This document shows positions 2,557-54,834 of a DNA stretch of 64,000 nucleotides, piece after piece; the stretch's first letter is position 1; each line of letters begins with the position of its first letter. The notes under the pieces were generated by a model, which saw only the letters and a program-made list of their open reading frames with translations, was not told where the DNA came from and did no database searches. The translations under genes were made by a program, and so were the position numbers. Source of the DNA: Corallium rubrum (Eukaryota > Cnidaria > Anthozoa > Scleralcyonacea > Coralliidae); assembly GCA_964035015.1 (NCBI GenBank), contig OZ036006.1, positions 11,697,316 through 11,761,315 of the forward strand. Direction: 5' to 3'.

Positions 2557-3181
2557 ACCAAAGACTTTGTTTGCCAAAGATGAAGTCCTATTGGTCAAAT
2601 CATGGTCACGTGTTGTTCAACAAACTCAATGTTTCTTTCTGCCGAGGGAAACATTGCACTGTTTCCCTCTGACGTCAACAATGAGGAAGAAAACAGTGCA
2701 ATATTTCCCTCTGACGTCAGCTTGCATCAGATCAAGAACTTTGGACTCTTCGGAACATTTTTAAAACAAGAGCTGTTTCGAGCTTGTTTGGTACGAAATA
2801 GTCCATTTTCCAAAGGAAAGAATATCTATACATATCTTCTGAAGGTCAGAAGAAAACCTGGATAAATTTAAAGCTGTTCTTTGTACTTGTTGAGTCTGGT
2901 GTATTTGTTTAGTTGAATTGAAATTACGAAGACAAAGTCAAAATGTTTTGGTAAGTCTTTTTGCCTTTTGCAAGTTTCGAGTAAACTTGGTATTTTGTAT
3001 TTTAAAAGTCTTTGGTATGTAACAAAACGCTTGTTGACTTTTGCCTGAGAAACATTGAGTTTTACGGTCCCTCAGGCTTCAATGTCACCCTTGGGCTAAA
3101 GCCCTCGGGTGACATTGAAGCCTTCGGGTCCGTAAAACTCGATGTTTCCCTCGGCGCCAGTCAATAAGTGTATATTGTTAT
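2557..3181 (+). repeat. Two-hairpin satellite, monomer 1
   Basis: The monomer carries two separate inverted repeats. Hairpin 1 (about 2644-2711) has arms based on GAGGGAAACATTGCACTG and its complement. Hairpin 2 (3057-3140) opens with GAGTTTTACGG and closes with CCGTAAAACTC around a CCTCGGG-rich tip. The right arm of hairpin 1 is slightly damaged here by extra A residues. The monomer runs straight into the next copy at TACCAAAGACTTT. Confidence 0.75.
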
Positions 3182-3841
3182 ATACCAAAGACTTTCGTTT
3201 GCCAATAATGAAATCCTATTGGTCAAATCATGGTCACGTGTTGTTCAACAAACTCAATGTTTCTTTCTGCCGAGGGAAACATTGCACTGTTTCCCTCTGA
3301 CGTCAACAATGAAGAGGGAAACAGTGCAATGTTTCCCCCTGACGTCGCTTTAATCATGCGTTGTTCACGTGAATACACGATTATTGCATCAGATCAAGAA
3401 CTTTGGACTATTCGGGCATTTTGAAAACAAGAGCTTGTTTCGAGCTTGTTTGGTACGAAATAGTCCATTTTCTGAAAGAAAGAATTTCTATACATATCTT
3501 CAAAGGTTTGAAAAACACTTTTAAAGCTGTTCTTAGTGTTCAGTCTGGTGTATTTGTTTAGTTGAATGACTTGAATTGAAATTACGAAGACAACGTCAAA
3601 GTGTTTTGGCAAGTCTTTTCGCCGTTTGCAAGTTTCAAGGCAGTTTCGTATTTTGTATTTTAAAAGTCTTTGGTATATAACAAAACGCTTGTTGACTTTT
3701 GCCTCGAGAAACATCGAGTTTTACGGTCCCTCAGGCTTCAATGTCACCCTCGGGCTAAAGCCCTCGGGTGACATTGAAGCCTTCGGGTCCGTAAAACTCG
3801 ATGTTTCCCTCGGCGCCAGTCAACAAGTGTATATTGTTATA
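3182..3841 (+). repeat. Two-hairpin satellite, monomer 2
   Basis: Direct repeat of the preceding unit. Hairpin 1 at 3272-3339 is a near-perfect 26-bp stem with a 16-nt loop; hairpin 2 spans 3716-3799 with arms of about 40 bp. Short open frames in this unit differ between monomers by frameshifts and are not coding. Confidence 0.8.
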
Positions 3842-4497
3842 TACCAAAGACTTTCGTTTGTCAATAATGAAATCCTATTGGTCAAATCATGGTCACGTGT
3901 TGTTCAACAAACTCAATGTTCTTTCTGCCAAGGGAAACATTGCACTGTTTCCCTCTGACGTCAACAATGAAGAGGGAAACAGTGCAATATTTCCCTCTGA
4001 CGGCGCTTTAATCATGCGTTGCTCAAGTGAATACACTATTATTGCATCACACCAAGAACTTTGGACTCTTCGGGCATTTTGAAAACAAGAGCTTGTTGTT
4101 TGGTATACGAAATAGTCCTTTTTCCGAAAGACAGAATTTCTATACATATCTTCAAAGAAGGTCTGAAAAACACTTGGAGAAATTTAAAGCTGTGTGTTTA
4201 GTCTGGTGTATTTGTTTAGTTGAATGACTTGAATTGAAATTACGAAGACAAAGTCAAAGTGTTTTGGTAAGTCTTTTCGCCGTTTGCAAGTTTCAAGGCA
4301 GTTTTGTATTTTGTATTTTAAAAGTCTTTGGTATATAACAAAACGCTTGTTGACTTTTGCCTCGAGAAACGTCGAGTTTTACGGTCCCTCAGGCTTCACT
4401 GTCACCCTCGGGCTAAAGCCCTCGGGTGACATTGAAACCTTCGGGTCCGTAAAACTCGATGTTTCCCTCGGCGCCAGTCAACAAGTGTATATTGTGG
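3842..4497 (+). repeat. Two-hairpin satellite, monomer 3
   Basis: Third tandem monomer, with hairpin 1 at about 3931-3996 and hairpin 2 at 4374-4457. The array ends at about 4497, where a GGCCCGCCAAAATGATGCC phrase resembles in reverse the GGCGGGCC sequences near 2320-2345 just upstream of the array. Confidence 0.75.
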
Positions 4498-5433
4498 CCC
4501 GCCAAAATGATGCCCGCGCAACATCGTGCAACTGGCCCATAATCAACGCCAAATGCAAATCACACAAAGTCCATAAATAAATAAAAATAAAATTAACGTA
4601 ACTTAACTTCTATAATGACTTCATCTTTCCTCCATGCCTTTGCTTGAACAGCCATTGTTTCATTGATGTTTCTTTTGCTAAAACTACATGCAGCTGATTT
4701 CAAAAAGCTTGTCCATTAACAAATGCATCATAGAATTCACTAATAGTCTTCTTTGCCTTAAAGTAAGATGTATACGCTACACTGCTAATTACTCGGGCTA
4801 CCTGTGGTAGGCCGGATCTAGGTTTCGGCTCGGGATTCCCCCCCATTTTTTTATACATTTTCGCACTTTTTACTTCCGCTACTATTCATACTTCCGGTGA
4901 GTTGCTAGCCGTGTGATGAAGTGAGGCTGTGCGGCATGTTGTAAGTTCTTTGCTCCTTTTGCTTTTGGAGTTGTACAAAAAGTTGAACAGCTTTGCCTTT
5001 TGATCAAGGTGTTCTTGCACATTGCTGGTAGATATTCCGATGTAGCTAACAACTGTCTTGATCGTAAATATGTTCACCAGTGTGAAGTATGCACCACATT
5101 CAGCCTTCGATCTGATCTTCCTCGGCCCACTCCCACCTTTGCTCGCGCGGTGTAGAGCTTCTGCGGTGGAGACCTCCGCACTTTTCCAGTAGCCCAAGTG
5201 AACGTCTGACCCAGTAAAATTACTCAAAGCAAGTGCTTTCGTACCAGCAACCAGCACGAGAAAAAGAAACGAATGTATTACACTAAACTACAGCTCACAG
5301 TTACTGTGTTCACCGTGCACATGCGCGCTGTAGACCAGCTCGTTTCCCAGCGTTTCGGCTTAGCATTACGAATGTTGAATAAATGGACAGTGGTTAGATA
5401 ACATTTGACACTTCATTGATTTTACAAACACAC
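4498..5433 (-). other. Spacer with an unidentified minus-strand open stretch
   Basis: This segment interrupts the satellite. On the minus strand a frame stays open from about 5290 to 4886 (roughly 135 codons). It begins with a hydrophobic stretch (SFLFLVLVAGTKALAL) followed by a basic, Lys/Arg-rich region. There is no ATG at its start: the open frame begins after a stop, and the first plausible initiator is GTG, so it would have to be an internal exon. I recognise no family. A fragment near 4790-4850 (ATTACTCGGGCTACCTG) belongs to the repeat family also seen at 26511 and 28042. It could be a decayed gene or element. Confidence 0.3.
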
Positions 5434-6056
5434 AAAAAGTATGATAAATCCTATTGGTCAAATCATGGTCACGTGTTGTTCAACAAACTCAATGTTTCTC
5501 TCTGCCGAGGGAAACATTGCACTGTTTCCCTCTGACGTCAACAATGAAGAGGGAAACAGTGCAATGTTTCCCTCTGACGCCGCTTTAATCATGCGTTGTT
5601 CACGTGAATACACGATTATTGCATCAGTTCAAGAACTTTGGACTCTTTGGGCATTTTGATAACAAGAGCTTGTTTCGAGCTTGTTTGGGACGAAATAGTC
5701 CATTTTCCGAAAGAAAGAACTTCTATACAGTTCTGAAAACACTTGGAGGAATCTGTCCTTAGTGTTGAGTCTGGTGTATTTGTTTAGTTGAATGACTTGA
5801 ATTGAAATTACGAAGACAACGTCAAAGTGTTTTTATAAGTCTTTTCGCCGTCTGCAAGTTTCAAGGCAGTTTTGTATTTGGTATTTTAAGTCTTTGGTTT
5901 ATATAACAAAACGCTTGTTGACTTTTGCCTCGAGAAACATCGAGTTTTACGGTCCCTCAGGCTTCAATGTCACCCTCGGGCTAAAGCATTCGGGTGAGAT
6001 TGAAGCTTTCGGGTCCGTAAAACTCGATGTTTCCCTCGGCGCCAGTCAACAAGTGT
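5434..6056 (+). repeat. Two-hairpin satellite, detached monomer 4
   Basis: Same organisation as the tandem monomers, separated from them by about 0.9 kb. Hairpin 1 (5507-5574) is again a 26-bp stem; hairpin 2 (5942-6024) has a few mismatches near its tip. Confidence 0.75.
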
Positions 6057-6237
6057 ATAGTGTCCTCTGTCTGCATTATATCAACAATCTCAGCAAGAAC
6101 ACGGCAATATTTTTAACATTTCAACTAGTACACTGCAATATTTTTAATATACCTTAATTTACAAACCTTTCATTTCTCGTTTACAAGGGTCTAAAGTCAG
6201 CGTTTCTTTAATAATTTATTGATGACATTTGAGATTT

Positions 6238-15939: not shown

Positions 15940-16700
15940 TTCATTTGCGTTGTTAAAATTTGATTCAGGTAAACATCTATGTCCTGACCAAATTTGTTGG
16001 TACCAATATGTCAAGCACATAAAAGGACCAGTTTCTTCTGTTACAGACAGAGTATTTATAGTCATGACTTCTCAAGTCAACTTCAAAAAGTCCGACTATC
16101 CTCCACACGATCACTTAAGTCCCTTCACTTGTAAAACAGAACCAGCTTCTTTAATTACAGATATAGAGTATTTCTAATCAATATTTTTTTACAAGTCATC
16201 CTCAAAATGTGCGACATCTTATATGTGATCTCTTAGATTCACTTGCCGATAAAGAACTAGTTTCTTTAAAGTTAACACAGTATTTCTAGACAAGACAATT
16301 ACAAGTCACCCTCAAAACGTCCGACACCGACTTTATCACTCTTCACTTGCCAACAGGGAACCAGCTTCTTTAATTACAGACGCAGAGTAGTCATAGTCAT
16401 GACTTCTTATACAAGTCACCTTCAAAAAGTCCGACATCTATGAGATCACATAAGCCCCTTCACTAGCCAATAGGGAACCAGCTTCTTTAATTAAGACGCA
16501 GACTATTCATAGTAATGAGTTTTACAAGTCACCCTCAAAACGTCCGACACCGAACATGATCACTGAAGCAGCTTCACTACTTGGCAATAGGGAACCAGCT
16601 TCTTTAATTACAGACGCCGAGTAGTAATGCATACTCACGACTTCTTATACAAGTCACCTTCAAAAAGTCCGACATCTATGTGACACTTAAGCCATTTTAG
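15940..16700 (+). repeat. Tandem repeat, ~115 bp unit, upstream of GPCR1
   Basis: CCAGCTTCTTTAATTACAGA recurs at about 16142, 16361, 16478 and 16595 with looser copies at 16029 and 16256. Each is followed by AGTCATGACTTCTTATACAA and GTCACCTTCAAAA. Equivalent arrays lie upstream of GPCR2 (47565-47985) and at 41330-41660, 46740-47110, 57220-57420. Confidence 0.75.
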
Positions 16701-17329
16701 GGATTTAAGGTCATAAATAGACACTTACTTAGAAGTATCGTCACATTTGGTACTGCACTCTGAACAGTAAGGTCGTACATGATCAATGCAAACGAAATAC
16801 AATACGTAAGAAGAAAACTGAATTACCGACTTAAGAAGAAAGTTACACAGTTGTCAAGTAAAAAAAGGTAAGGGAAATATTGCCTTAAATTTGACAGTTA
16901 TCGGGAATGACAATAATCAAGACCGATCCACTTAGATTAGGCGAGTTGAACTGGTTAGCCGAGAAAGGCAATTTTATCCGAGATCTCCGTGGCTATACGC
17001 AATACTGACTTACTGTGTTAAAGCACTTTTATAGATTACATGAAAGACACGCCAGCACGGTTAGCCAGGATCCCGGTTAGTGCTTGCCGAGTCATCTGGC
17101 ATCTCGGTTAATTGGGATGAAAATACCCACCAACTCGTTTCACTGGACAGAGCGGGCTGAAAAACTGCTAAACTCAGGCCGATACGAGTTCGTAAGGTTT
17201 ACTTGATTATCTGAATAAGGCTGAAAAGAAACTGAGCATCAAAACATTCTTTCTCGTGTTTCGTAATTGTAGCGAAGACTTCGTCTCCGTAAAGACGTTT
17301 TCGCGGGTTAGCTTTTAGAAATCTATTTT

Positions 17330-17735
17330 GTTTTGCTTGGAATCGGAATCTTTACAATAACGAGTTTCCATGCAGTCAGACTATATGTTTTCACGCGATG
17401 CCGGAGCGCCTTGAAGGATAATGATTCGCTGCGTTCACTGGAATACGTTCAAAATTTTAGACGGTTTTTCTATGACGCCAACTTGCCAACTATAGATACG
17501 TATACGTCAGCGCTCGGTGATCTTTCGTGAAATTGGTGTTGCCACTTGTCGCTCAGTGTAGCTCAACATTTTCCATTTTTGAGTATGAGGTTCTCTCGCC
17601 CGATCAGCAGTGGTCATAAATATGCTCAATAAACGGTTTCGCTTTGCAATTTTCATATTTATTTACGGATACTGGAGAAACAACAATAGGACTAAAGGTC
17701 CCTTACAAGGTTGTTCTGCTAAGATCTAGGTGTTG
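17330..17735 (+). promoter_or_regulatory. Conserved upstream block of GPCR1 (promoter / 5' UTR candidate)
   Basis: This ~400-bp block is strongly conserved at 48630-49030 and 62385-62785, each time about 280-350 bp before a GPCR start codon. It includes TTTTCTATGACGCCAACTTG and ACGTCAGCGCTCGGTGATC. The block is far better kept than neighbouring spacer, so it may hold the promoter and a 5' untranslated exon. No TATA box is certain. Confidence 0.45.
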
Positions 17736-17806
17736 ATTTTACGGGGAGAACAAAGCACAGGAGAGATCAACTACAATAACTACCTATATGAGTCCGAAGC
17801 TCAAGC

Positions 17807-17875
17807 CCGAAGTTATTCCCAAGAGGTCACCCATGAGTACTAACCCCGTCCAAACGGCAATCGGGCTTAACTTTG
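17807..17875 (-). pseudogene. 5S rRNA-derived fossil, upstream of GPCR1
   Basis: On the minus strand the sequence reads GTTAAGCCCGAT, then GGTTAGTACTCATGGGTGAC, then TCTTGGGAATAAC. This follows the 3' half of eukaryotic 5S rRNA (GGTTAGTACTTGGATGGGTG, CCTGGGAATAC). It sits at the same place before all three GPCRs. A 5S-derived SINE remnant is possible. Too short and altered to be a working 5S gene. Confidence 0.5.
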
Positions 17876-18015
17876 CATGGATCGCAGCGATTGCAACCAA
17901 CTCTTCGCCAAATGTTCGTGGTTATTTGTTATATCTTTGTGTGATCAATTGTCGACTATATTGTTTCAAGAACTAATTAAGCATTTTTCTGTTTTACGTT
18001 ACTGTAGAAATAGAT

Positions 18016-19104
18016 ATGATCACGAATATTACGAGAAATTCAACCCAATATGAAGGAAACTTCTACATTGACTCTAATGTATATATCATAATTAGAATTA
18101 CCCTGGCTGGTCTCTCTTTCGTCCTCAACGCCATGTTTCTCGTTGTCATAGCAACGAACAGGGATCTCGTAAAGCAAAGACGTATCACCTATCATGTTGG
18201 AAACTTGGCGCTAGCAGACACAGTGTACGGTTTAAGTCGCTTTTTATTCGTTTCAACATTGATAAGAAATATAGATTCATCAACACTGATTGACGTATCC
18301 AGAGGAATAAACGCGTTTGGATATTTAATGTCGTTCTCTGCAGTACTTCTCATGGCCATTGAAAGAGCTGTAGTGATGAAATATCCTTTTACGTGGCTCG
18401 ATTTATTGCCTCTTAAAAGAATTCTCTTACTCATGCTTGGGACCTGGATGATATCACTTGGCATGTTTGGTTATTACATAGCAACGTGGGACGTAAATAT
18501 ACGTCTCGTGTCCAGTATTATATTTCTAATCATTGCTTTCTCAGCAGTACTAGTTAATATTTACATATTCAAAATACTTCGGCAAGAAAAGAATACATCA
18601 GGCGCGATTTCAAGCAATCAGGAGAAGACTAAACGTCTTAAACACAAGGCTAGTGTACTCGTGTTAGTATTGACCGTAATAATGGTAGTCACGTGTCTTC
18701 CACGCTTAACGAGCCGAATCATTTCTTATGTATATGCGGAACTTCGTAGCTCCCCTCCAGTAAAATTTATCGTCGTTCACTTATATTTTGGGATACTGGA
18801 AGACTTGAACTTCCTCGTCAACCCATTTATCTACATATGGAAGGTCAGGGTATATCGAAAGGCTCTCTGCCTTACTTTAAAATTAAAAAGTGTCTGTAAA
18901 AGAGGAGAAAAGAATTACAAGCATACTATTTCTCTAAGTCGAGTGATTAACTCAAACACTCAGGGACAGGGACAGGGACAGATCCAAGTCAAAGATCAAC
19001 ACATTTCAAAAAATATAAGAAAAAAAGAACTAATTAAGATAAGAAACAAAGTATCGAGTATACTATATAAGAGAAGTCTCAGTTACAGCAAAGCGGTAGT
19101 GTGA
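18016..19104 (+). CDS. Class A (rhodopsin-like) G-protein-coupled receptor, GPCR1
   Basis: A 362-residue seven-helix receptor in one exon, placed in the plasma membrane and expected to signal through heterotrimeric G proteins; its ligand is unknown. The N-terminus has two glycosylation sequons (N4, N8). TM1 carries N38, TM2 has NLALAD (63-68), TM3 ends in ERA (116-118) where most receptors have DRY, TM4 has W144, TM6 has CLP (227-229) in place of CWLP, and TM7 has NPFIY (269-273). There is no cysteine at the top of TM3 or in loop 2, and TM5 lacks the usual proline. These traits are shared with melanocortin-type receptors. The basic, Gln-Gly-repeat C-tail is about 80 residues. The start is chosen because an intron acceptor-like TTTTACGTTACTGTAG lies just upstream and the paralogs share this ATG. 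Orphan, very likely functional. Confidence 0.9.
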   Translation: MITNITRNSTQYEGNFYIDSNVYIIIRITLAGLSFVLNAMFLVVIATNRDLVKQRRITYHVGNLALADTVYGLSRFLFVSTLIRNIDSSTLIDVSRGINAFGYLMSFSAVLLMAIERAVVMKYPFTWLDLLPLKRILLLMLGTWMISLGMFGYYIATWDVNIRLVSSIIFLIIAFSAVLVNIYIFKILRQEKNTSGAISSNQEKTKRLKHKASVLVLVLTVIMVVTCLPRLTSRIISYVYAELRSSPPVKFIVVHLYFGILEDLNFLVNPFIYIWKVRVYRKALCLTLKLKSVCKRGEKNYKHTISLSRVINSNTQGQGQGQIQVKDQHISKNIRKKELIKIRNKVSSILYKRSLSYSKAVV

Positions 19105-19125
19105 AACAACTTACCAACAAATCTA

Positions 19126-19326
19126 AGGGCTGTTTATATGAGTCGAGCTAACCCGGCTGATTTTATCAACGAAAATCTTATTACGACTATTTGAGAAATG
19201 CAAAATCACACAACGAAGCAAAATTGGGTTTGTTTTTCTGTAGGTATAGCACACGGAGTATTATAATTCCTTTTTGTAGTCAAACTGAAAGTTTTCGTGA
19301 TATTCCGCTTTATATAAACAGCCCCT
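19126..19326. mobile_element. MITE downstream of GPCR1
   Basis: The ends are AGGGCTGTTTATATGAG and its inverted partner ending TATATAAACAGCCCCT. The paralogous copy after GPCR2 (50421-50745) carries an extra internal segment. Confidence 0.65.
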
Positions 19327-21025: not shown

Positions 21026-21246
21026 TTGGTACTTCCAATTACAATTGGTAATTCCAATTAATTAATTCAAAATAGACAGTGGTAATTCCAGGAGAGAATT
21101 GGATTTATTAGAAGTAATATTGGGTATTTCACTCGATTACATAGCATGTTCTAGGGATTTTTTGTGAAGGAAAATTCGAGTGTAGAATACATACATTTTA
21201 AGACCACCTTAATGTATACAGAACTCGCGATCAAGCTCTCGGCAAA

Positions 21247-21320
21247 GGCCTCTGTGGCTAAGTGGTCAGAGCATTGCACTAGAATCGCAAGGTCGTGGGT
21301 TCAATTCCTGCCAGAAGGCC
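21247..21320 (+). pseudogene. tRNA-like sequence, unit 1
   Basis: Box A (TGGCTAAGTGG, 21255-21265) and box B (GGTTCAATTCC, 21298-21308) fit RNA polymerase III internal promoters. GGCCTCTG can pair with CAGAAGGCC, leaving one bulged A. A D-stem, an anticodon stem with loop CTAGAAT, and a T-arm can be drawn. The loop would read AGA (Ser), but the variable loop is too short for tRNA-Ser, so this is better seen as a tRNA-derived SINE-type unit. Confidence 0.6.
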
Positions 21321-21521
21321 TGTGTAGTTGCATTTTTCGCAACTGGTCCAGGTTTGGTCTTAAAATGTATATATTCTGCACTCGAATTTTCCTTCACCCC
21401 AAATCCTTAGAACATGCTATGTAATCGAGTGAAATGCCCAATATCATTTAAAATATAACCAATTCTCTCCTGGCATTACCACCTTAATATATACAGAACT
21501 CGCGATCAAGCTCTCGGCAAC

Positions 21522-21595
21522 GCCCTCTGTGGCTCAGTGGTCATAGCATTCCACTAGACTCGCAAGGTTGTGGGTTCAATTCCTGCCGGAAGGCC
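21522..21595 (+). pseudogene. tRNA-like sequence, unit 2
   Basis: Same fold as unit 1, with box A TGGCTCAGTGG and box B GGTTCAATTCC. The acceptor stem is weaker and the anticodon stem has a mismatch. Confidence 0.55.
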
Positions 21596-21796
21596 TGTGT
21601 AGTTGCATTTTCCGCAACTGGTCCCGGTTTGGTCATAAAATGTATATATTCTACACTCGAATTTTCCTTCACCAAAAATCCTTAGAACATGTCATGCAAT
21701 CGAGTGAAATGCCCAATATCACTTATAATATACCCAATTCCCTCCTGGCATTACCACATTATATATACAGAACACGCGATCAAGCTCTCGGCAACG

Positions 21797-21870
21797 CCCA
21801 TCCGTGGCTCAGTGGTCAGAGCATTGCACTGGAATCGCAAGGTCGTGGGTTCAATTCCTGCCGGAAGGCC
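21797..21870 (+). pseudogene. tRNA-like sequence, unit 3
   Basis: Boxes A and B are intact and the loop reads CTGGAAT. The acceptor stem has changed on the 5' side, so it is probably not a working tRNA. Confidence 0.55.
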
Positions 21871-22019
21871 TGTGTAATTGCATTTTCCGCAACTGGTCCC
21901 GGTTTGGTCTTAAAATGTATATATTCTACACTCGAATTTTACTTCACCAAAAATCCCTAGAACATGCTATGTTATCGAGTGAAATGCCCAATATTACTTC
22001 GAATAAAATTTATTCATGT

Positions 22020-22340
22020 GTTGATATATTAAAGACAAAAAGATAAGCTTCCAACTATAACTATAAACTTCACAGTTTACTTTATACTTCTAAGAGAAGA
22101 CAAACTGCCTGAGTCGTTTCTTCGGCTTTCAGAAAAGGCCACAGGAATTTTGCTCGAAGCCATTTATATATTCTGTGCTCTATATTCAAGGAGTTTTATA
22201 TTTTAATTTTTACGTTTTTAGAGTACAGTGAGTCACATACCTTGCCAAACAAAACTAACAAACGGTCAGTGTTCTGTCGAACACTTAAACACTTCTCGTT
22301 ACGGCACAGTATAAACGAATTGAAAGCGAAGCAGAGAAGA
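22020..22340. other. Duplicated intergenic segment (paralog at 53660-54730)
   Basis: GATAAGCTTCCAACTATAAC and GGCCACAGGAATTTTGCTCG are shared with the region after GPCR2, where the same segment is split by a TIR element at about 53922-54605. No gene is seen. Confidence 0.65.
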
Positions 22341-30837: not shown

Positions 30838-32590
30838 GAGTATTTTGGTATTTTAATATTATACACTCTACACTCTGCACTCTCAAACTTCCACACTCTC
30901 TGCACTCCACACTCACTGCACTCTACACTCCACACTCACTGCACATTACACTCTGCACTCCACACTCACTGCACTCTGCACTCCACACTCCGCACTCCAC
31001 ACTCACTGCACTGCACACTCACTGCACTCCACACTCACTGCACTCCACACTCACTGCACTCTGCACTCCACACTCACTGCACTCCACACTCTCTGCACTC
31101 CACACTCTCTGCACTCCACACTCTCTGCACTCCACACTCTCTGCACTCCACACTCTCTGCACTCCACACTCTCTGCACTCCACACTCTCTGCACTCCACA
31201 CTCTCTGCACTCCACACTCTCTGCACTCCACACTCTCTGCACTCCACACTCTCTGCACTCCACACTCTCTGCACTCCACACTCTCTGCACTCCACACTCT
31301 CTGCACTCCACACTCTCTGCACTCCACACTCTCTGCACTCCACACTCTCTGCACTCCACACTCTCTGCACTCCACACTCTCTGCACTCCACACTCTCTGC
31401 ACTCCACACTCTCTGCACTCCACACTCTCTGCACTCCACACTCTCTGCACTCCACACTTTCTACACTCTACACTCTCTGCACTCCACACTCTATGCACTC
31501 CACACTTTCTACACTCCACGCTCTCTGCACTCTACACTCTGCCCTCTACACTCTTTGCACTCCACACTCACTACACTCTGCAATCCACTCTCTGCACTCC
31601 ACACTCTCTGCACTCAACACTCTCTGCACTCCACACTCTCTGCACTCCACACTTTCTACACTCCACACTCTCTGCACTCCACACTCTCTGCACTCCACAC
31701 TTTCTACACTCCACACTCTCTGCACTCTGCACTCTACACTCTCTGCACTCCACATGCTCTGCATTCTCTGCACTCTACACTCTCTGCACTCTACACTTTG
31801 CACTCCACACTCTCTGCACTCCACATTCTGCACTCTACACTATGTATTCTCCACCCTCCACTCTGCAGTCTTCACTCCGCAGTATACACTCTGTAGCTTG
31901 TACTCTCCACTCTGCAGTCTTCATTCTGTAGTCTACACTTTGCAACTTGTACTCTCTACTCTCCACTCTTCATTCTCCACTCTGCAGCTTGCACTCTATA
32001 CAGCTTGCACTCTACACTCTGTAGCTTACACTCTGCACTCTCCACCCCACACTACACCCTGTACTCTACACTACACGCCACACTCTGTACTTTCCACTCT
32101 CCACTAAGCACTCTGAAGTTTGAATTCTGCACTCCGAACTCTACACTCAGCAATCTGCACTCCATACTCTGCACTCTACACTCCACAACCTACACTTTGT
32201 ACTCTCCACTAAGCACTCTGCATTCTGCACTCTACGCGCTAGACTTTGCACTCTGCTCACTACACTACACCACACCACACCACACCACACCACACCACAC
32301 CACACCACACCACACCACACCACACCACACCACACCACACCACACTACACTACACTACACTACACTACACTACACTACACTACACTACACTACACTCTCA
32401 GTGCACTCTACACTCTCAGTGCACTCTACACTCTCAGTGCACTCTACACTCTCACTACACTCTCAGTACAGTACAGTACACGCTCCACTTTCAGTGCACT
32501 CTACACTCTACATTCTACATTCTGCACCAAGCACTCTGCACTCTACATTCTAAACTCTGTACTCTGCATTTTCCAATCTGAACTCTAGAC
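30838..32590. repeat. CACTCTCTGCACTCCA minisatellite complex, ~1.7 kb
   Basis: About 23 nearly perfect 16-bp units run from 31083 to 31457. They are flanked by looser CACTCTGCA variants, a (CCACA)n block at 32262-32345, a (CTACA)n block at 32346-32396 and 18-bp TCTCAGTGCACTCTACAC units after that. All six frames are partly open through the period length; none is a gene. Confidence 0.9.
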
Positions 32591-47564: not shown

Positions 47565-47985
47565 AGCTCCTTTCATTACAGATATAGAGTATTTCTAGTC
47601 ACAAGACACCCTCAAGACGTCCGACATCTTATATGTGATCTCTTATATAAGCCCCTTCACTTGCCGATAGAGAACTAGTTTCTTTAAATATAACAGACAG
47701 TATTTACAAGTCACCCTCAAAACGTCGGACACCGATATGATCACTTAAGCCTCTTCACTTACCTATAGGGAACCAGCTTCTTTAATTACAGACACAGAGT
47801 AGTCATAGTCATGACTTCTTATACAAGTCACCTTCAAAAAGCCCGACATCTATGTGATCACATAAGCCCCTTCACTTGCCACTAGGGAACCAAGCTTCTT
47901 TAATTACAGACACAGAGTAGTCATAGTCGTGACTTCTTTTACAAGTCACCTTCAAAACGTCCGACGTCTATGTGATCACTTAAGC
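47565..47985 (+). repeat. Tandem repeat, ~115 bp unit, upstream of GPCR2
   Basis: Four units with CCAGCTTCTTTAATTACAGA, equivalent to the array upstream of GPCR1. Confidence 0.7.
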
Positions 47986-48629
47986 CACTTTTAGGGATTT
48001 AAGGTCATAAATAGACACTTACTTAGGAGTATCGTCACATTTGGTACTGCACTCTGCAAAGTAAGGTCGTACATGATTAATGCAAACGAAATACAATACG
48101 TAAGAAGAAAACTGAATTACCGACTTAAGAAGAAAGTTACACAGTTGTCAAGTAAAAAAAGGTAAGGGAAATATTGCCTTAAATTTGACAGTTATCGGGA
48201 ATGACAATAATCAAGACCGATCCACTTAGATTACGCGAGTTGACCTGGCTAGCCGAGAACGGCAATTTTATCCGAGACCTCCGTGGCTATATTAAATACT
48301 GACTTACTGCGTTAAAGCACTTTTATAGATCACATGAAAAACACGCCAGCACGGTTAGGCAGGATCCCGGTTACTGCTTGCCGAGTCATCTGGCATCTCG
48401 GTTAATTAGGATGAAAATGCCCACCAACTCGTTTCACTGGACAGAGCGGGCTGAAAAACTGCTAAACTCATGCCGATACGAGTTCGTAACGTTTACTTGA
48501 TTATCTGAATAAAGCTGAAAAGAAACTCAGCTGCAAAACATTGTTTCTCGTGTTTCGTAATTGTAGCGAAGACTTCGTCTCCGTAAGGACGTTTTCGCGG
48601 GTTAGCTTTTAGAAATCTAGTTATTTTGT

Positions 48630-49030
48630 TTTGCTTGGAATCGGCGGAATCTTTACAATAATGAGTTTCCATGCAGTCAGACAATATGTTTTCACGCGAT
48701 GCCGGTGCACCTTGAAGGATGATTCGCTGCGTTCCCTGGAATACGTTCCAAATTTTAGACGGTTTTTCTATGACGCCAACTTGCCAACTATAGATACGTA
48801 TACGTCAGCGCTCGGTGATCTTTCGTGAAATTTCTGTTGCCACTTGTCGCTCAGTGTAGCTCAACATTTTCCATTTCAGAGTATGAGGTTCTCTCGCCGA
48901 TCAGCAGTGGTCATAAATATGCTCAATAAACGGTTTCACTTCGCAATTTTCATATTTATTTACGGATACTGGAGAAACAACAATGGGACTAAAGGTCCCT
49001 TACAAGGTTGTTCTCCTAAGATCTAGGTGC
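48630..49030 (+). promoter_or_regulatory. Conserved upstream block of GPCR2
   Basis: Matches 17330-17735 closely, differing by in-length indels such as GGAATCGGCGGAATC versus GGAATCGGAATC. The spacing to the start codon is preserved. Confidence 0.45.
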
Positions 49031-49136
49031 TGATATTAAGGAGGAGGGGGAACCGAAGAACCCGGAAGAAAAACCCTCGAAGTACAGGAGAGATCAACTA
49101 CAACAACTCAATACTGATCTGCGTCCGAAGCTCAAG

Positions 49137-49195
49137 CCCAAGGTTATTCTAAGTAGCTACTAACTCCGTCCAATCGGCAATCGGGCTTAACTTTG
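49137..49195 (-). pseudogene. 5S rRNA-derived fossil, upstream of GPCR2
   Basis: Same position as the copy before GPCR1 but more decayed: the GGTTAGTACT region now reads GTTAGTAGCTACTTAG on the minus strand. Confidence 0.4.
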
Positions 49196-49369
49196 CATGG
49201 ATCGCAGCGATTGCAGGCAACTCTTTGCCAAATGTTCGTGGTTATTTGGTATATCTTTGGGTGATCAATTGTCGACTATATTGTTTCAAGGACTAATTAA
49301 GCATTTTTCTGTTTTACGTTACTGTAGAAATAGATATGATCACAAATATTACGAGAAATTCAACCCAAT

Positions 49370-50209
49370 ATGAAGGAAAACATTGATGTATATATCACAA
49401 TTAGGATTACCCTGGCTGGTCTCTCTTTCGTCCTCAACGCCATGTTTCTCGTCGTCCTAGCGACAAACAGGGATCTCGTAAAGCAAAGACGGGTCACCTA
49501 TCATGTTGGAAACCTGGCGCTAGCAGACACATTGTTCGCTTTAGGTCGCTTTTTATTCTTTTTAACATTTATTACAAATAGATATCCATCAACACTGCTT
49601 GAAGTTTCCGACGAAATAGTCTCGTTTGGATATGTAATATCGTTCTCTGCAGTACTTCTCATGGCCATTGAAAGAGCTGTAGTGATAAAATATCCTTTTA
49701 CATGGTTCGACATATTGCCTCTTAAAAGAATTCTCTTACTCATACTTGGGACCTGGATGATATCACTTGGCGTGTTGGGTTATTACATCGCAACTTGGGA
49801 CGTAAATATATATCTCGTGCGCAGTATTCTATTCCTAATCATTGCCTTCTCAGCAGTACTAGTTAATATTTACATCTTCAAAATACTTCGGCAAGAAAAG
49901 AATACATCAGGCGCGATTTCAAGCAATCAGGAGAAGACTAAACGTCTTAAACACAAGGCTAGTGTACTTGTGTTAGTATTGACCGTAATAATGGTAGTCA
50001 CGTGCCTTCCAACCTTAACGTGCAGAGTCATATTTTGGGTATATCGGGAACTTCGTAGCTATCCTCCAGTAGAATTCTTCTACGTTTTCATGCATCTTAT
50101 TATACTGGAAGACTTGAACTTCCTCGTCAACCCATTTATCTACATATGGAAGGTCAGGGTATATCGAAAGGCTCTTTGCCTTACTTTTAAAATTAAAAAG
50201 TGTCTGTAG
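49370..50209 (+). CDS. Class A G-protein-coupled receptor, GPCR2 (shortened at both ends)
   Basis: A 279-residue paralog of GPCR1 in one exon. All seven helices remain: NLALAD in TM2, MAIERAV at the end of TM3, TCLP in TM6 and NPFIY in TM7. The ATG that matches GPCR1's start (49336) leads into TGA at 49384 because 11 bp are missing; translation can restart in frame at 49370, but the two N-glycosylation sequons are lost. A TAG after KIKKCL removes the ~70-residue C-tail; sequence resembling the tail continues downstream. The third cytoplasmic loop is identical to GPCR1, while extracellular loops differ (FITNRYPSTLLEVSDEI versus LIRNIDSSTLIDVSRGI). It may be a working short receptor or an early pseudogene. 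The intron acceptor-like TTTTACGTTACTGTAG is kept. Confidence 0.8.
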   Translation: MKENIDVYITIRITLAGLSFVLNAMFLVVLATNRDLVKQRRVTYHVGNLALADTLFALGRFLFFLTFITNRYPSTLLEVSDEIVSFGYVISFSAVLLMAIERAVVIKYPFTWFDILPLKRILLLILGTWMISLGVLGYYIATWDVNIYLVRSILFLIIAFSAVLVNIYIFKILRQEKNTSGAISSNQEKTKRLKHKASVLVLVLTVIMVVTCLPTLTCRVIFWVYRELRSYPPVEFFYVFMHLIILEDLNFLVNPFIYIWKVRVYRKALCLTFKIKKCL

Positions 50210-50420
50210 AAGGGGAGAAAAGAATTACAACCATACTATTTCTTAAGCCGAGTGATTAAATCAAACACTCAGGGACAGATCCAAGTCAAAGATCAACACA
50301 TTTGAAAAAATATAAGAAAAAAACAACTAACTAAGATAAGAAACAAGGTACCGAGGATACTATATAAAAGAAGTTTCAGTTACAGCAAAGCGGTAGTGTG
50401 AACAGCTTACCAACAAACCT

Positions 50421-50745
50421 AAGGGCTGTTTATATGAGCCGAGCTAACCCGGCTGATTTTATTTAGTTATATCATTATAAATAAAGTTATCATATCCTAT
50501 CGTATTGTATTATATTGTATTATATCTTAAAGAAATACTTAAAGGTTTTCTGTGTTTGGATACTGATGCCTGATTTTATGTCACGAAAATCTTATTACGA
50601 CTATTTGAGAAATGAAAAATCACATAACGAACCAAAATTGGGTTTGTTTCTCTGTAGGTATAGCACACGGAGTATTATAATTCTTTTTTGTAATCAAAGA
50701 AAATTTTCTTGGTATTCCGCCTTATATAGGAACAGCCCCTAAGAC
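50421..50745. mobile_element. MITE downstream of GPCR2, with internal insertion
   Basis: Same ends as 19126-19326. Between GGCTGATTTTAT and GTCACGAAAATC lies an extra ~120 bp that matches the sequence found about 0.7 kb further downstream in block A (19893-20043), including an AATAAA at 50480. Confidence 0.6.
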
Positions 50746-51769: not shown

Positions 51770-52055
51770 TTTTTGGGTAGGAGTGTGCTGCTGTGACCTC
51801 AAAATCCTGACCTGGTCTATCCCAGACCTAAAAAGACGATTTCCTATACCCTATCCCAGTCCTAAACTTAAAAAAAATCAATGCCCTATCCCAGCACTGG
51901 TGTCACCTCAGCATCCATACTCTACCTCAGACCAAAATAAGCATACCAGTGCAGAGCAAAATAGAATTTGTATACCCTATCCCAGACCATGGAGCTCAAA
52001 AACCATACCCAATAGGGCAGAACCTACCCGTATACTTTATATATGAGAGTACCCC
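51770..52055 (-). repeat. CCCTATCCCAG repeat family, long copy
   Basis: CTATCCCAGACC, CCTATACCCTATCCCAGTCC and ACCCGTATACTTTATATATG are matched in reverse by 26096-26360. A 123-codon open stretch spans it but follows the repeat, not a gene. Confidence 0.6.
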
Positions 52056-52074
52056 TAAATGCCATGTGTAAAGC

Positions 52075-53520
52075 TTATAGTCAAAGAGAGCAAATTTCTT
52101 TGCAGTTTGACTTTGAGCCTTTATTTTTCCGTATGGCCTTTCCATCTCCCTTTCCCCGCATACCCCCCTACATCCAAGACACTACTGACATTCTCATAAG
52201 TGAGTTGTTTTGAGGGAAAATGTTCGTACTGACTTAATACTTATTACTGTCAATAGCTTGTATACAAACATATCAAATGACTTAGGCACATTTAAGCATG
52301 CATTGATATGCTTAAGATACACAAGATAGCTGACATGCATTAACACAAAATACATTACTTTTATACCTCTACCTTTACCTACATCCAATAGTTAATACTA
52401 ATATCCCTACATAATCCCACAACTATACCCCTAAGGACAATGACTATCCCCTTAATTCCTACAACACTTACGCACTTCTCACTGTGACCTGGAAACGAAT
52501 ACCCTACCCAACAAATATACCAACAAAATAACTCTAGTTACACCTATAGAAAAATTATACCAACTGTTCAATGACATGACATACAATTTCCTTTTGGCCA
52601 CAAACTAATACAAACACACTGACATACATACTTCCCAAAATACACAACCCAACATACCCATACTTTTTTCTATTAAAGTCAATAGCTTGTACACAGACAT
52701 ATCAAATGATGAAGGCGTTAAAACCTCCGTTGATATGCTTAAGGTACCCAAAAGTGTTGACATCTATACAGACCACAATACCAATTTATACACTTCCACT
52801 TATACATACATCAAACAATTTACTATTTATATCTTGACATTATCCCACAATTACCCCTAAAGACAATGACTACCCCCGTTGTCGGCACTACGCACGCTTC
52901 ACTGTGACCTGGAAACGAATGGCGCAACACTACTTAACCCTTCTCTTAACGGACACCCTCATTACATATCTGAAGACTGACAAAGACAAGTGATTTCTCC
53001 TACTAAACTGCTACGAGAACTCTACACACTGCTACCTTCCTACTCTACTCCAAGATTTTCAAATGCGTTGACCTAAAACACACAACAAGTTTGGTAAGCA
53101 CTCACTTGTATTCTCCTCTAATATTATTGTGTTGATAGCGATTATTATTTATCTTCCAACAATTAACTTAATATTTACATTGACTCCCAACCCCAAATCC
53201 CTGCTGATGAGACCACCAGAAGGTCGAAACGCGTCCAGGGTTGTGTCCTAAGATCTTGATTGCACTATACTACACGTTACAAGTCCTTAATTCTTTTTCT
53301 GATGTTTTTTCATGATTCTTAAACAGTATTTTTACACTGCATGTCCAACAGCGTGTTCCGTGTCGCCTTTCATACGCAACATAGCCGGAGGCTAATTGCG
53401 CTTTTTGTTCAAATTCCCTTCGAATCTCTCCCTCATTCTTCAACATTACACGACTAAAACTCCTTTGTGGTTCCCATTAACTACACTCAAATTTAAAAAA
53501 AAAATTGTGATAACCCCGTA
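52075..53520 (+). mobile_element. Penelope-like element remnant
   Basis: Frameshifted reverse-transcriptase motifs lie on the plus strand: YIQDTTDIL (52169-52195), SLYTNISND (52254-52280), LPKIHNP (52631-52651) and SLYTDISNDEGVKTSVDML (from 52684). These match the conserved LPKIHK, YIKDTTDFL and SLYTNIPHDEG blocks of Penelope-like reverse transcriptases. A ~430-bp stretch is present twice (52250-52500 and 52680-52920), so two truncated copies lie in tandem. A hammerhead ribozyme follows at 53199, where such elements carry one in their terminal repeats. No endonuclease domain is seen. Confidence 0.65.
53199..53240 (+). ncRNA. Hammerhead ribozyme, minimal type I form
   Basis: Stem I is CCCTG (53199-53203) with CAGGG (53236-53240). 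The core CTGATGA is at 53204-53210. Stem II is GACC (53211-53214) with GGTC (53222-53225) around the loop ACCAGAA. The core GAAA is at 53226-53229. A very short stem III and the cleavage triplet GTC (53233-53235) complete it. All conserved core bases and the first stem II pair (G-C) are present. Short stem III is usual in Penelope-like elements. Predicted cut after C53235. Confidence 0.8.
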
Positions 53521-53723
53521 GCGAAAGGAGAGAGCTTATTCAAGCTCGCCACATTGTGTAGTTTTACTGTGACTGACAGCGACATTCCTAAACGCCAAAA
53601 TAAAATAGCCATTTATTCAGGTGTTCGGTCACTTAATTCAAAGTTGAAACTAGAAATATTGAAGACAAAAAGATAAGCTTCCAACTATAACTATATATAA
53701 ACCTCACAGTTTACTTTACTTCT

Positions 53724-53795
53724 AAGACAAGACAAGACAAGACAAGACAAGACAAGACAAGACAAGACAAGACAAGACAAGACAAGACAAGACAA
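53724..53795. repeat. (GACAA)n microsatellite
   Basis: About 14 five-base units. The paralogous site near 22094 has only AAGAGAAGACAAAC, so it expanded after duplication. Confidence 0.9.
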
Positions 53796-53921
53796 ACTGT
53801 TTGACTCGTTTCTTCAGCTTTCAGAAAAGGCCACAGGAATTTTGCTCGAAGCCATTTATATATACTGTGCTCGATACTCAAGGAGTTTTATATCTTAATT
53901 TTTTACGTTTTTAGAGTACAA

Positions 53922-54605
53922 TAAAGCCCCGTTCACACTAGCGGCCTAGGCCTGGCCTGGGCCCAGATTTTTGATGGTGTGAATGGGTTTTACCTGGCCT
54001 GGACCTGGCCTGGGCCCGGAAAACTAGGTCGACGAAGGGCCTCGTTTATGCTGATGTGAACGGGTTTTACCTGGGTCCTGCCTAGGTCAGGCCGCATTGC
54101 CATGGTAATAAGCGCCCACGATACAAATTGGTCAGATGCATGATTCAAGAATCGGAGGGAAAACGATTATAATAAGTTGCGACTCGTGCGTTTCAAGACA
54201 TTTTAATTCTAATCATTTTCATTTGTATTCATGGCAAACACTTGGTCGGATATCGAAACCAAGCTTCTTGTTACGCTTTAATTTGGAGTGATGCAAACGT
54301 GCAAGGACAACTAGAAAACCACAGCAAATGGCGGTATTCGAGAAACTTGCCGAAGGCATGGCGGATAGTGGATTTAAGCGAAATGCTAAACAATGCCAGT
54401 CAAAAATCAAACATCTCAGAGAAAAATATTACAATTATAAAGATAAGGATGCTAGATCTGGTGCTTGTAGTGCAATGCCGCAAAAATTGTATACATATAC
54501 GAGCCTGTTTACTTTGGCCGCCAAACCTTGGCCACGCAAGTGTGAACGGGTCACACTTGGCCCAGGCCAGGCCTAGGTACAGTAGCTAGTGGAAACGCGA
54601 CTTTA
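53922..54605 (+). mobile_element. TIR element with Myb/SANT-like fragment (Harbinger-like)
   Basis: The left end TAAAGCCCCGTTCACACTAG and the inverted right end TAAAGTCGCGTTTCCACTAG are partial inverted repeats; GGCCTAGGCCTGGCCTGGG recurs inside both. The insertion splits a segment that is whole at 22020-22340, so its boundaries are good to a few bases. A Myb/SANT-like domain inside suggests PIF/Harbinger, whose elements encode such a partner protein. Confidence 0.6.
54231..54500 (+). pseudogene. Myb/SANT-like (trihelix) DNA-binding domain, frameshifted
   Basis: Three frames carry successive parts: MANTWSDIETKLLVTL from the ATG at 54231, then IWSDANVQGQLENHSK, then VFEKLAEGMADSGFKRNAKQ and CQSKIKHLREKYYNYKDKD. 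Together they follow a Myb/SANT-like domain of the type common in cnidarian transposon-derived proteins: paired Trp residues, then a K-x-C-x-x-K-I-K-x-L helix. At least two frameshifts make it non-functional. Codons past 54500 run into the terminal repeat. Confidence 0.65.
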
Positions 54606-54834
54606 GTCACATATCTTGTCAAACAAAACTAACAAAAAGTCAGTGTATTGTCGAACAGATAAATACTTCTCGCTATGGCACAGTATAAACGAAACGTAAC
54701 GAAGTGAAAGCGAATTTATTGAAAGGAAGCAGAGAAGGTCAAAAGCACACGAAAAAACAAAAAAGACAACCACACGGCCTTCGGCCACTCCCGTTTACTT
54801 TCCGGAAGCGTTCGGTAAAACTTGGGTATGTACA

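Follow-up and report, generated by a model that had tools for sequence, protein, structure and literature searches.

The locus and its features

The window, i.e., the whole stretch of 64,000 nucleotides of Corallium rubrum DNA that was analyzed, contains a motif that is best read as a type I minimal hammerhead ribozyme in a Penelope-like element (PLE). The coordinates of the motif, of its carrier element and of the other features of the window are collected in Table 1. Pieces of the region 53653-54693, which holds a Myb/SANT-like frame, repeat at 22023-22319, while the hairpin-like repeats at 3072-6063 are perhaps inverted-repeat transposons.

Table 1. Features of the window, with the basis of each assignment
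Feature	Position	Strand	Basis or remark
Type I hammerhead ribozyme, minimal form	53199..53240	+	Direct reading; Rfam RF00163, 28.1 bits
Stem III, self-complementary ACGCGT, suited to two-copy pairing	53229..53234	+	Direct reading; dimer fold energy
Non-autonomous Penelope-derived element, one monomer, ~1.5 kb	52054..53598	+	Whole-length alignment to tandem monomers elsewhere in the genome
Reverse-transcriptase fragment, frame differs from next piece	52151..52195	+	tblastn, L073 ORF2 residues 302-316, sum E 0.001
Reverse-transcriptase fragment around SLYTN	52210..52287	+	tblastn, L073 ORF2 residues 322-349, sum E 0.001
Weak reverse-transcriptase fragment	52598..52660	+	tblastn, L073 ORF2 residues 254-275, E 0.20
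Same reverse-transcriptase region, second copy	52639..52785	+	tblastn, residues 324-373, E 1.1e-5
pLTR-like module, ribozyme cut to A-rich 3' end	53236..53502	+	Shared 3' stop of dispersed copies; 5' limits at cut
Beginning of another monomer (CCTAAACGCCA), closely repeating the left end	53587..53598	+	Alignment to array monomers
Three tandem 275-bp units, tRNA-like gene in each	21203-21999		Rfam tRNA, 31-51 bits
Open rhodopsin-type GPCR frame	49340-50206		Within duplicated block
Duplicated block	16301-19166 / 47601-50462		88% identical
Myb/SANT-like DNA-binding frame	54292-54573 (within 53653-54693)		Just downstream of element, outside it
Hairpin-like repeats	3072-6063		miRNA models MIR477 and mir-8517, below gathering score
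16-bp tandem array, ~58 copies	30890-31841		Region in which C strongly outweighs G on this strand

A minimal type I hammerhead with a palindromic stem III

Direct reading of the bases bore out the coordinates and the complete core given in the preliminary description of this DNA, i.e., CTGATGA (53204-53210), GAAA (53226-53229) and GTC (53233-53235), with the predicted cut between 53235 and 53236. Pairing was likewise confirmed base by base for the two stems held to be perfect, namely stem I (5 bp; CCCTG 53199-53203 with CAGGG 53236-53240) and stem II (4 bp; GACC 53211-53214 with GGTC 53222-53225), the loop of which is ACCAGAA. Stem III, which had been called minimal, is indeed short and can be specified further as a 6-nt palindrome. 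The absence of an Rfam covariance hit above threshold had been named as grounds for refutation, and taken to the letter this is what was found: the gathering-threshold scan of the window did not return a hammerhead, the score of RF00163 (Hammerhead_1) lying under the required 34 bits, while the model nonetheless aligned over its full length (E = 0.01 for the 64 kb against all 4227 Rfam families; E = 7.8e-5 when 501 bases were searched). The gathering score is a curation threshold, and the motif is a minimal form without a closed stem III; the near absence of a stem III loop would account for the lower score.

The loose core pattern has an expectation of 0.36 per window and was found in 32 of 100 shuffles, and being so frequent by chance it leaves the case to rest on the stems and on the relatives. 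A chance match to the hammerhead consensus, as this expectation and the sub-gathering score might be taken to indicate, is scarcely credible and was ruled out by genome-wide counts: across 474 Mb in 312 contigs the loose pattern has 7761 matches versus 2145 in a reversed control, and the family pattern, which includes the paired stem II of the window ribozyme, has 109 versus none. Among 15 distinct close copies, variation is seen at one of 42 ribozyme sites and at 37 of the 339 sites in the flanks (Fisher P = 0.058), which weakly suggests protection of the ribozyme bases relative to their flanks. Copies within the family came from a pattern that fixes stem II, and a cross-family comparison was used instead in assessing compensatory change; stem II differs in sequence across the hammerhead families of the genome yet still pairs. 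Furthermore, an even palindrome of at least 6 nt is present at stem III in 15 of 22 distinct motifs with a stem II of at least 3 bp, versus six of 59 others (Fisher 6e-7, based on 100 listed of the 7761 loose-pattern places). For the symmetrical ribozyme dimer a fold energy of -29.7 kcal/mol was obtained, and the best dimer fold is only slightly more stable (-30.2). A single copy reaches -11.0 kcal/mol in the ribozyme fold without stem III and prefers another fold (-12.2). The monomer fold was discarded as evidence: the lowest-energy structure predicted for 46 nt differs from that of the ribozyme, and it does not improve on shuffled sequences (z -0.64). Judged by its sequence and its relatives, the hammerhead at this site is real, and its self-cleavage is predicted.

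Other hammerhead families of the genome (L158-L161, L165, a 278-bp tandem, and L166-L167) look like true retrozymes. Several of these retrozyme-like copies adjoin or lie inside (TA)n microsatellites, and L161 is barely longer than the ribozyme.

A reduced carrier element and its coding relative

The window element aligns to four monomers of a tandem array on contig C13 with 94.5-94.7% identity over 1555 columns. Array monomers measure 1919 bp on C13 and alternate between 1578 and 1919 bp on C39, with one ribozyme per monomer in the parts read, and the nine complete ribozyme motifs read in these arrays are identical to one another and to that of the window. A 381-nt search of the genome gave 397 first-look candidates, 40 of which were scored, the long matches being 95-98% identical. 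Alignments end at element position 1447-1450, ~266 nt past the cut, in 24 of 37 loci (window copy excluded), while the left limits of dispersed copies vary. Inspection of 20 short copies by eye showed 14 that end in an A-rich stretch such as TATAAAAAA and then pass into other DNA; of the remaining six, two continue beyond the A-rich end and the rest are altered or shortened. Target-site duplications were sought in the same 20 copies and none was convincing, with matches of 6-7 nt at most. The window copy itself extends beyond this usual 3' end. The 5' limit of the pLTR-like module coincides with the cut in some copies and, in one insertion (L072), lies one base beyond it.

The reverse-transcriptase (RT) frames next to the ribozyme had been described as ruined, and a tblastn search of the whole window (E up to 10) agreed: queried with the RT frame of L073, a coding relative, it returned nothing beyond the four plus-strand pieces of Table 1, all within the element. 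The second copy of the RT region belongs to an internal repeat of the element (73.6%), element positions 453-605 are 67% like positions 4738-4892 of the coding relative L072, and the start of ORF1 gives a weak match at 52117-52164 (E 0.10). An intact RT gene adjoining the ribozyme was considered and rejected, as Pfam searches of nine of the 40 window frames and of the GPCR frame showed none and the L073 RT found only these pieces in the window. The preliminary picture of an intact core beside dead coding sequence thus holds as to the intact core and the dead RT, and needs correction as to place: the ribozyme lies inside one non-autonomous element. That element aligns end to end with array monomers elsewhere, so that the ribozyme outlived the coding sequence in a unit that was still being copied.

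The coding relative was found on C47 (L073) and C1 (L072), and possesses a 522-aa frame followed by a 654-aa frame with an RVT_1 match. In L073 the 654-aa open frame matches RVT_1 with E 9.7e-8, while frames of 589 aa and 545 aa both reach 1.7e-8; the 522-aa frame gave no credible Pfam match. The relative is arranged in tandem at C47, with a spacing of 4982 bp; at C1 it is bounded by a direct terminal repeat of 258 bp. The same type of ribozyme sits downstream of the RT frames, directly at the 5' edge of the terminal repeat. Six alignments, which span 363-525 columns, put the identity between its 3' module and the window element at 85-87%. Compared with the PDB, the RT had no relative at E 0.01 and weak matches to other RTs only, up to E 10; on its motifs we tentatively place it in the PLE clade. 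With a threshold of E 0.1, neither ORF of the relatives (ORF1, ORF2) yielded a GIY-YIG endonuclease, and one downstream frame showed none either. On its architecture and these RT motifs the coding relative is called Penelope-like, and PLEs without endonuclease are known (PMC3846280). The segment L073:5127-8608 may be recorded in its own right as a Penelope-like tandem element with two open frames, in which GIY-YIG is not recognisable. The RT pieces, together with a coding relative carrying the same ribozyme type, support the original assignment of the locus to a Penelope-like remnant. What the window element has kept is the 3' part, i.e., the hammerhead and ~266 nt up to the A-rich 3' end.

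Genomic 5' ends of related copies at the predicted cut

In L072, an insertion with a coding copy, the terminal repeat begins one base past the predicted cut and the insertion extends as far as the A-rich 3' end; genomic 5' ends were therefore tested for clustering. Positions below are relative to the cut, with negative values upstream, and break positions carry an error of one or two bases. A first sample was drawn from 191 places that match the 19-mer following the cut (up to two mismatches), of which 100 were listed, all of them exact. Sixty-two adjoin a strict ribozyme, i.e., a match to the family pattern with paired stem II (11 of these in one C13 cluster), and all 38 others were fetched, the lists being matched by hand. 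Breaks were placed by anchored alignment to 31 reference arms. Homology was lost 0-1 nt upstream of the cut in six of the 38 copies (L079, L081, L093, L095, L104 and L109); seven further breaks lie 12, 13, 21, 21, 32, 34 and 65 nt upstream, and the other 25 copies run on. Of the 12 breaks within -34 to 0, six therefore occupy just two of 36 positions (P 2e-5; sample drawn from the 100 listed of 191).

Not all of these starts are simple insertion ends, since some adjoin pieces of elements or repeats. For example, the element 3' end (TATAAAAAA) is joined directly to the cut in L104, inverted element sequence reaches to within 8 nt of the cut in L081, a 31-nt inverted piece lies 44 nt from the cut in L079, and the starts of L095 and L109 adjoin sequence found also in L074. 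The upstream flanks of L093, L132 and L136 showed nothing recognisable among the loci compared. Another cut-adjacent copy, L146 with L186, has one and the same host sequence on its two sides in inverted orientation, by eye as if from copy-back on the other strand.

The second sample used an anchor 98 nt downstream of the cut, which removes the bias of requiring bases at the cut itself. This anchor has 213 matches (up to one mismatch; none in the control), of which 100 were listed: 39 with strict ribozyme, 16 shared with the first 38 and 45 newly fetched, again matched by hand. Two cut starts, L093 and L109, are common to both samples. Start positions were determined twice, initially from local alignments to four references and later, in a recount, from anchored alignments to 26 reference arms. 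Copies with shared flanks were merged as duplicates (L116/L122/L143, L129/L130, L121/L153/L154 and L128/L139). Four copies (L088, L101, L140 and L156) that share a within-ribozyme deletion were excluded from the cut-start counts; they form a subfamily that lacks the 5' half of the ribozyme and retains element sequence on both sides.

In the recount, 16 of the 100 copies listed of 213 (14 independent) start at -1 to +10 and 22 (18 independent) at +11 to +97, while seven (L098, L101, L133, L140, L147, L152 and L156) have breaks or deletions at -62 to -2 and the rest run on; as strict-ribozyme copies were not fetched in this sample, breaks beyond -35 are under-counted. Fourteen of 39 independent breaks thus lie at -1 to +10, versus three expected if evenly spread (P 5e-7), the 12-base range having been picked post hoc and position 0 predicted beforehand. 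At the predicted point itself (-1/0) there are four of 39 (P 0.0015, among the same 100 listed of 213), and the near-cut starts of this sample lie mostly at +5 to +8, at the foot of stem I, whose 3' strand occupies +1 to +5. The first count had given 15 of 36 (P 2e-8), with L116/L122/L143 included as near-cut; these start at +6 (L143 at +15) by local alignment and at +15 in the recount, and are not among the near-cut copies in the 14 of 39. Placement also changed for L144 (-49 by local alignment, running on in the recount) and for L147 and L152 (running on by local alignment, breaking at -51 in the recount). The recount slightly lowers the odds in favor of the cut.

In the genome 41 copies belong to a subfamily with the marker GATTGCACTTTACTTATACG, and 26 of them reach the ribozyme (25 with its 3' half, plus L144); L089, in which the 3' half is present, breaks at -21. 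Ten of the 41 (nine independent) start at -1 to +10 and L118 starts at +15, while four lie outside the fetched set, among them C15:7982098, with a probable break between -11 and +7.

Lineages with mutated cores

Twenty copies in the genome carry the signature TGTCCTAAGATKATTGYA, and all 20 were read. The core is altered by C3 to A in nine, by C3 to T in six and at G12 in one; two more have partly lost the ribozyme, L200 is broken ~7 nt upstream of the cut, and one copy retains the core with a mismatch in stem II. None of the 20 starts at the cut, versus 15 of 75 second-sample copies with starts at -1 to +8 (Fisher P 0.021, two signature copies excluded) or 13 of 73 after merging of duplicates (P 0.033). 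Signature copies and comparison samples were found with different anchors, so that the contrast is suggestive only, and the absence of cut starts from these mostly core-mutated lineages is offered as a suggestive natural control. Sister copies with mutated cores are useful natural mutants, those with C3 to A being L076, L078, L096, L102, L103, L105, L110, L196, L198 and L199, and those with C3 to T being L086, L106, L108, L192, L194 and L195; lineages of both kinds have multiplied. Because core-mutated and partly ribozyme-less lineages multiplied, cleavage is not obligatory.

Proposed role of the ribozyme and alternative explanations

The clustering of starts at the cut suggests that ribozyme cleavage helps to make new copies. 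Taken jointly with the reading of the window element as a non-autonomous Penelope-like retroelement that kept its cis-acting 3' part and lost its proteins, we regard this as fairly probable. In the mechanism that we propose, tandem or paired transcripts would bring two ribozymes together through the palindromic stem III, and the RNA would be cut after GTC. The RT of the coding relative, from which the proteins for the window element must come, would then initiate at the A-rich site on the 3' product or on the whole tandem RNA. Running off at the cut, it would yield copies that start at 0; the loss of a few more bases at the junction, or a stop at the base of stem I, would give starts at +5 to +8, and reading through an uncut ribozyme would give longer copies. 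The window copy has one ribozyme only, and alone it should therefore cut poorly. The stronger form of the proposal is that the hammerhead cuts in living cells and that the cut end becomes the 5' end of the retrotransposition template. The pLTR would then be the stretch between the ribozyme cut and the RT start, solo pLTRs would be reverse-transcribed 3' cleavage products, and ribozyme-dead lineages would keep the read-through route only; to this fuller account, on the genomic patterns described, we give a little better than an even chance.

Cleavage of the template and an RT stop at the folded ribozyme would each explain the starts, and the exact starts favor cleavage. That the ribozyme folds and need not cut, with the RT stopping at the base of stem I and copies ending just downstream, is an unlikely alternative: it accommodates the second-sample starts at the stem I foot, and insertion in vitro by an Anolis element does not need cleavage (PMC11167929). 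Such a stop would, however, not put six of 12 upstream breaks, and L132, at the cut, nor does it fit the start of L072 one base past it; moreover, in copies with C3 to A four of the five pairs of stem I are mostly intact, and still no signature copy starts there. Less probable still, we consider, is that the ribozyme is a passenger relic, intact through recent amplification, and that the breaks are hot spots of recombination or end-joining. The identity of close copies (95-98%) leaves little time for decay, the variable-site contrast is weak (P 0.058) and mutated lineages multiplied, all as a relic would have it, but the position of the cut was predicted from the ribozyme before the breaks were mapped, and the clustering there is seen in several subfamilies, among breaks whose flanks differ. 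A metazoan retrozyme, i.e., a circular-RNA element that is small (~170-400 nt) and has no tie to coding elements, would likewise be non-coding, tandem and AT-rich with a type I ribozyme, and the 278-bp tandem unit of L165 resembles a true one in this genome. This identity is nevertheless very improbable for the window element and was rejected on the monomer size of 1578-1919 bp and the RT remnants, and the 3' module common to the window element and the coding element also speaks against it.

Comparison with known systems

Hammerheads in Penelope elements are already known, and Cervera and de la Pena reportedly described, in 2014, minimal type I hammerheads in the pLTRs of Penelope-like elements. 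Such motifs are also described in PMC6155905 and PMC7761336, the latter of which calls their role in vivo 'still a mystery'. Like the ribozyme of the present family, they are of type I, lack a proper stem III, lie in the terminal repeat of an RT-coding element and are expected to act as dimers. In contrast to them, the ribozyme here occurs in a reduced carrier of 1.5-1.9 kb in arrays, and genomic 5' ends were mapped to its cut. A mapping of genomic 5' ends to the cut of a PLE hammerhead was not found in the open-licence papers searched, and the frequent stopping of homology of relatives at the predicted cut appears to be a new finding. Break points at the cut, absent in 20 mostly core-mutated relatives, turn the matter into a countable question that can be repeated in other genomes.

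Another comparison is with the Anolis PLE PAc (PMC11167929), which shares the tandem arrangement, the pLTR, the hammerhead and a fixed RT start zone. There, ribozyme mutants were without effect on insertion in vitro and RNA-seq reads neither begin nor end at the cut, so that PAc shows no sign of ribozyme use in insertion or in RNA reads, whereas genomic breaks in the present family suggest such use. PAc furthermore has a GIY-YIG endonuclease, and none was found in the coding relative here. For the coral Acropora millepora, PMC7229834 reports over 6000 motifs of type I, of which at most 1508 are canonical; the remaining majority are minimal and set apart as PLE/Terminon-like. The excess of the loose hammerhead pattern in the present genome (7761 versus 2145) is similar in size to that count. 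The retrozymes of that coral are, like the window element, non-autonomous and tandem with a type I hammerhead, but their repeats measure 220-240 bp, compared with 1578-1919 bp and RT remnants here.

Rotifer Terminons (PMC6431247) resemble the family in being PLE-related, in carrying hammerheads and in forming long arrays; their ribozyme is 3'-terminal, by telomeric repeats, whereas that of the window element lies ~266 nt upstream of the A-rich 3' end. From the reduced element one can see what portion of a PLE relative was retained during continued copying. The HDV-like ribozyme of R2 (PMC3774820) is a different ribozyme in a different class of element, but self-cleavage of RNA at the 5' junction of the element is what is proposed here as well; if the proposal is true, PLEs would gain a 5'-end mechanism parallel to that of the R2 ribozyme.
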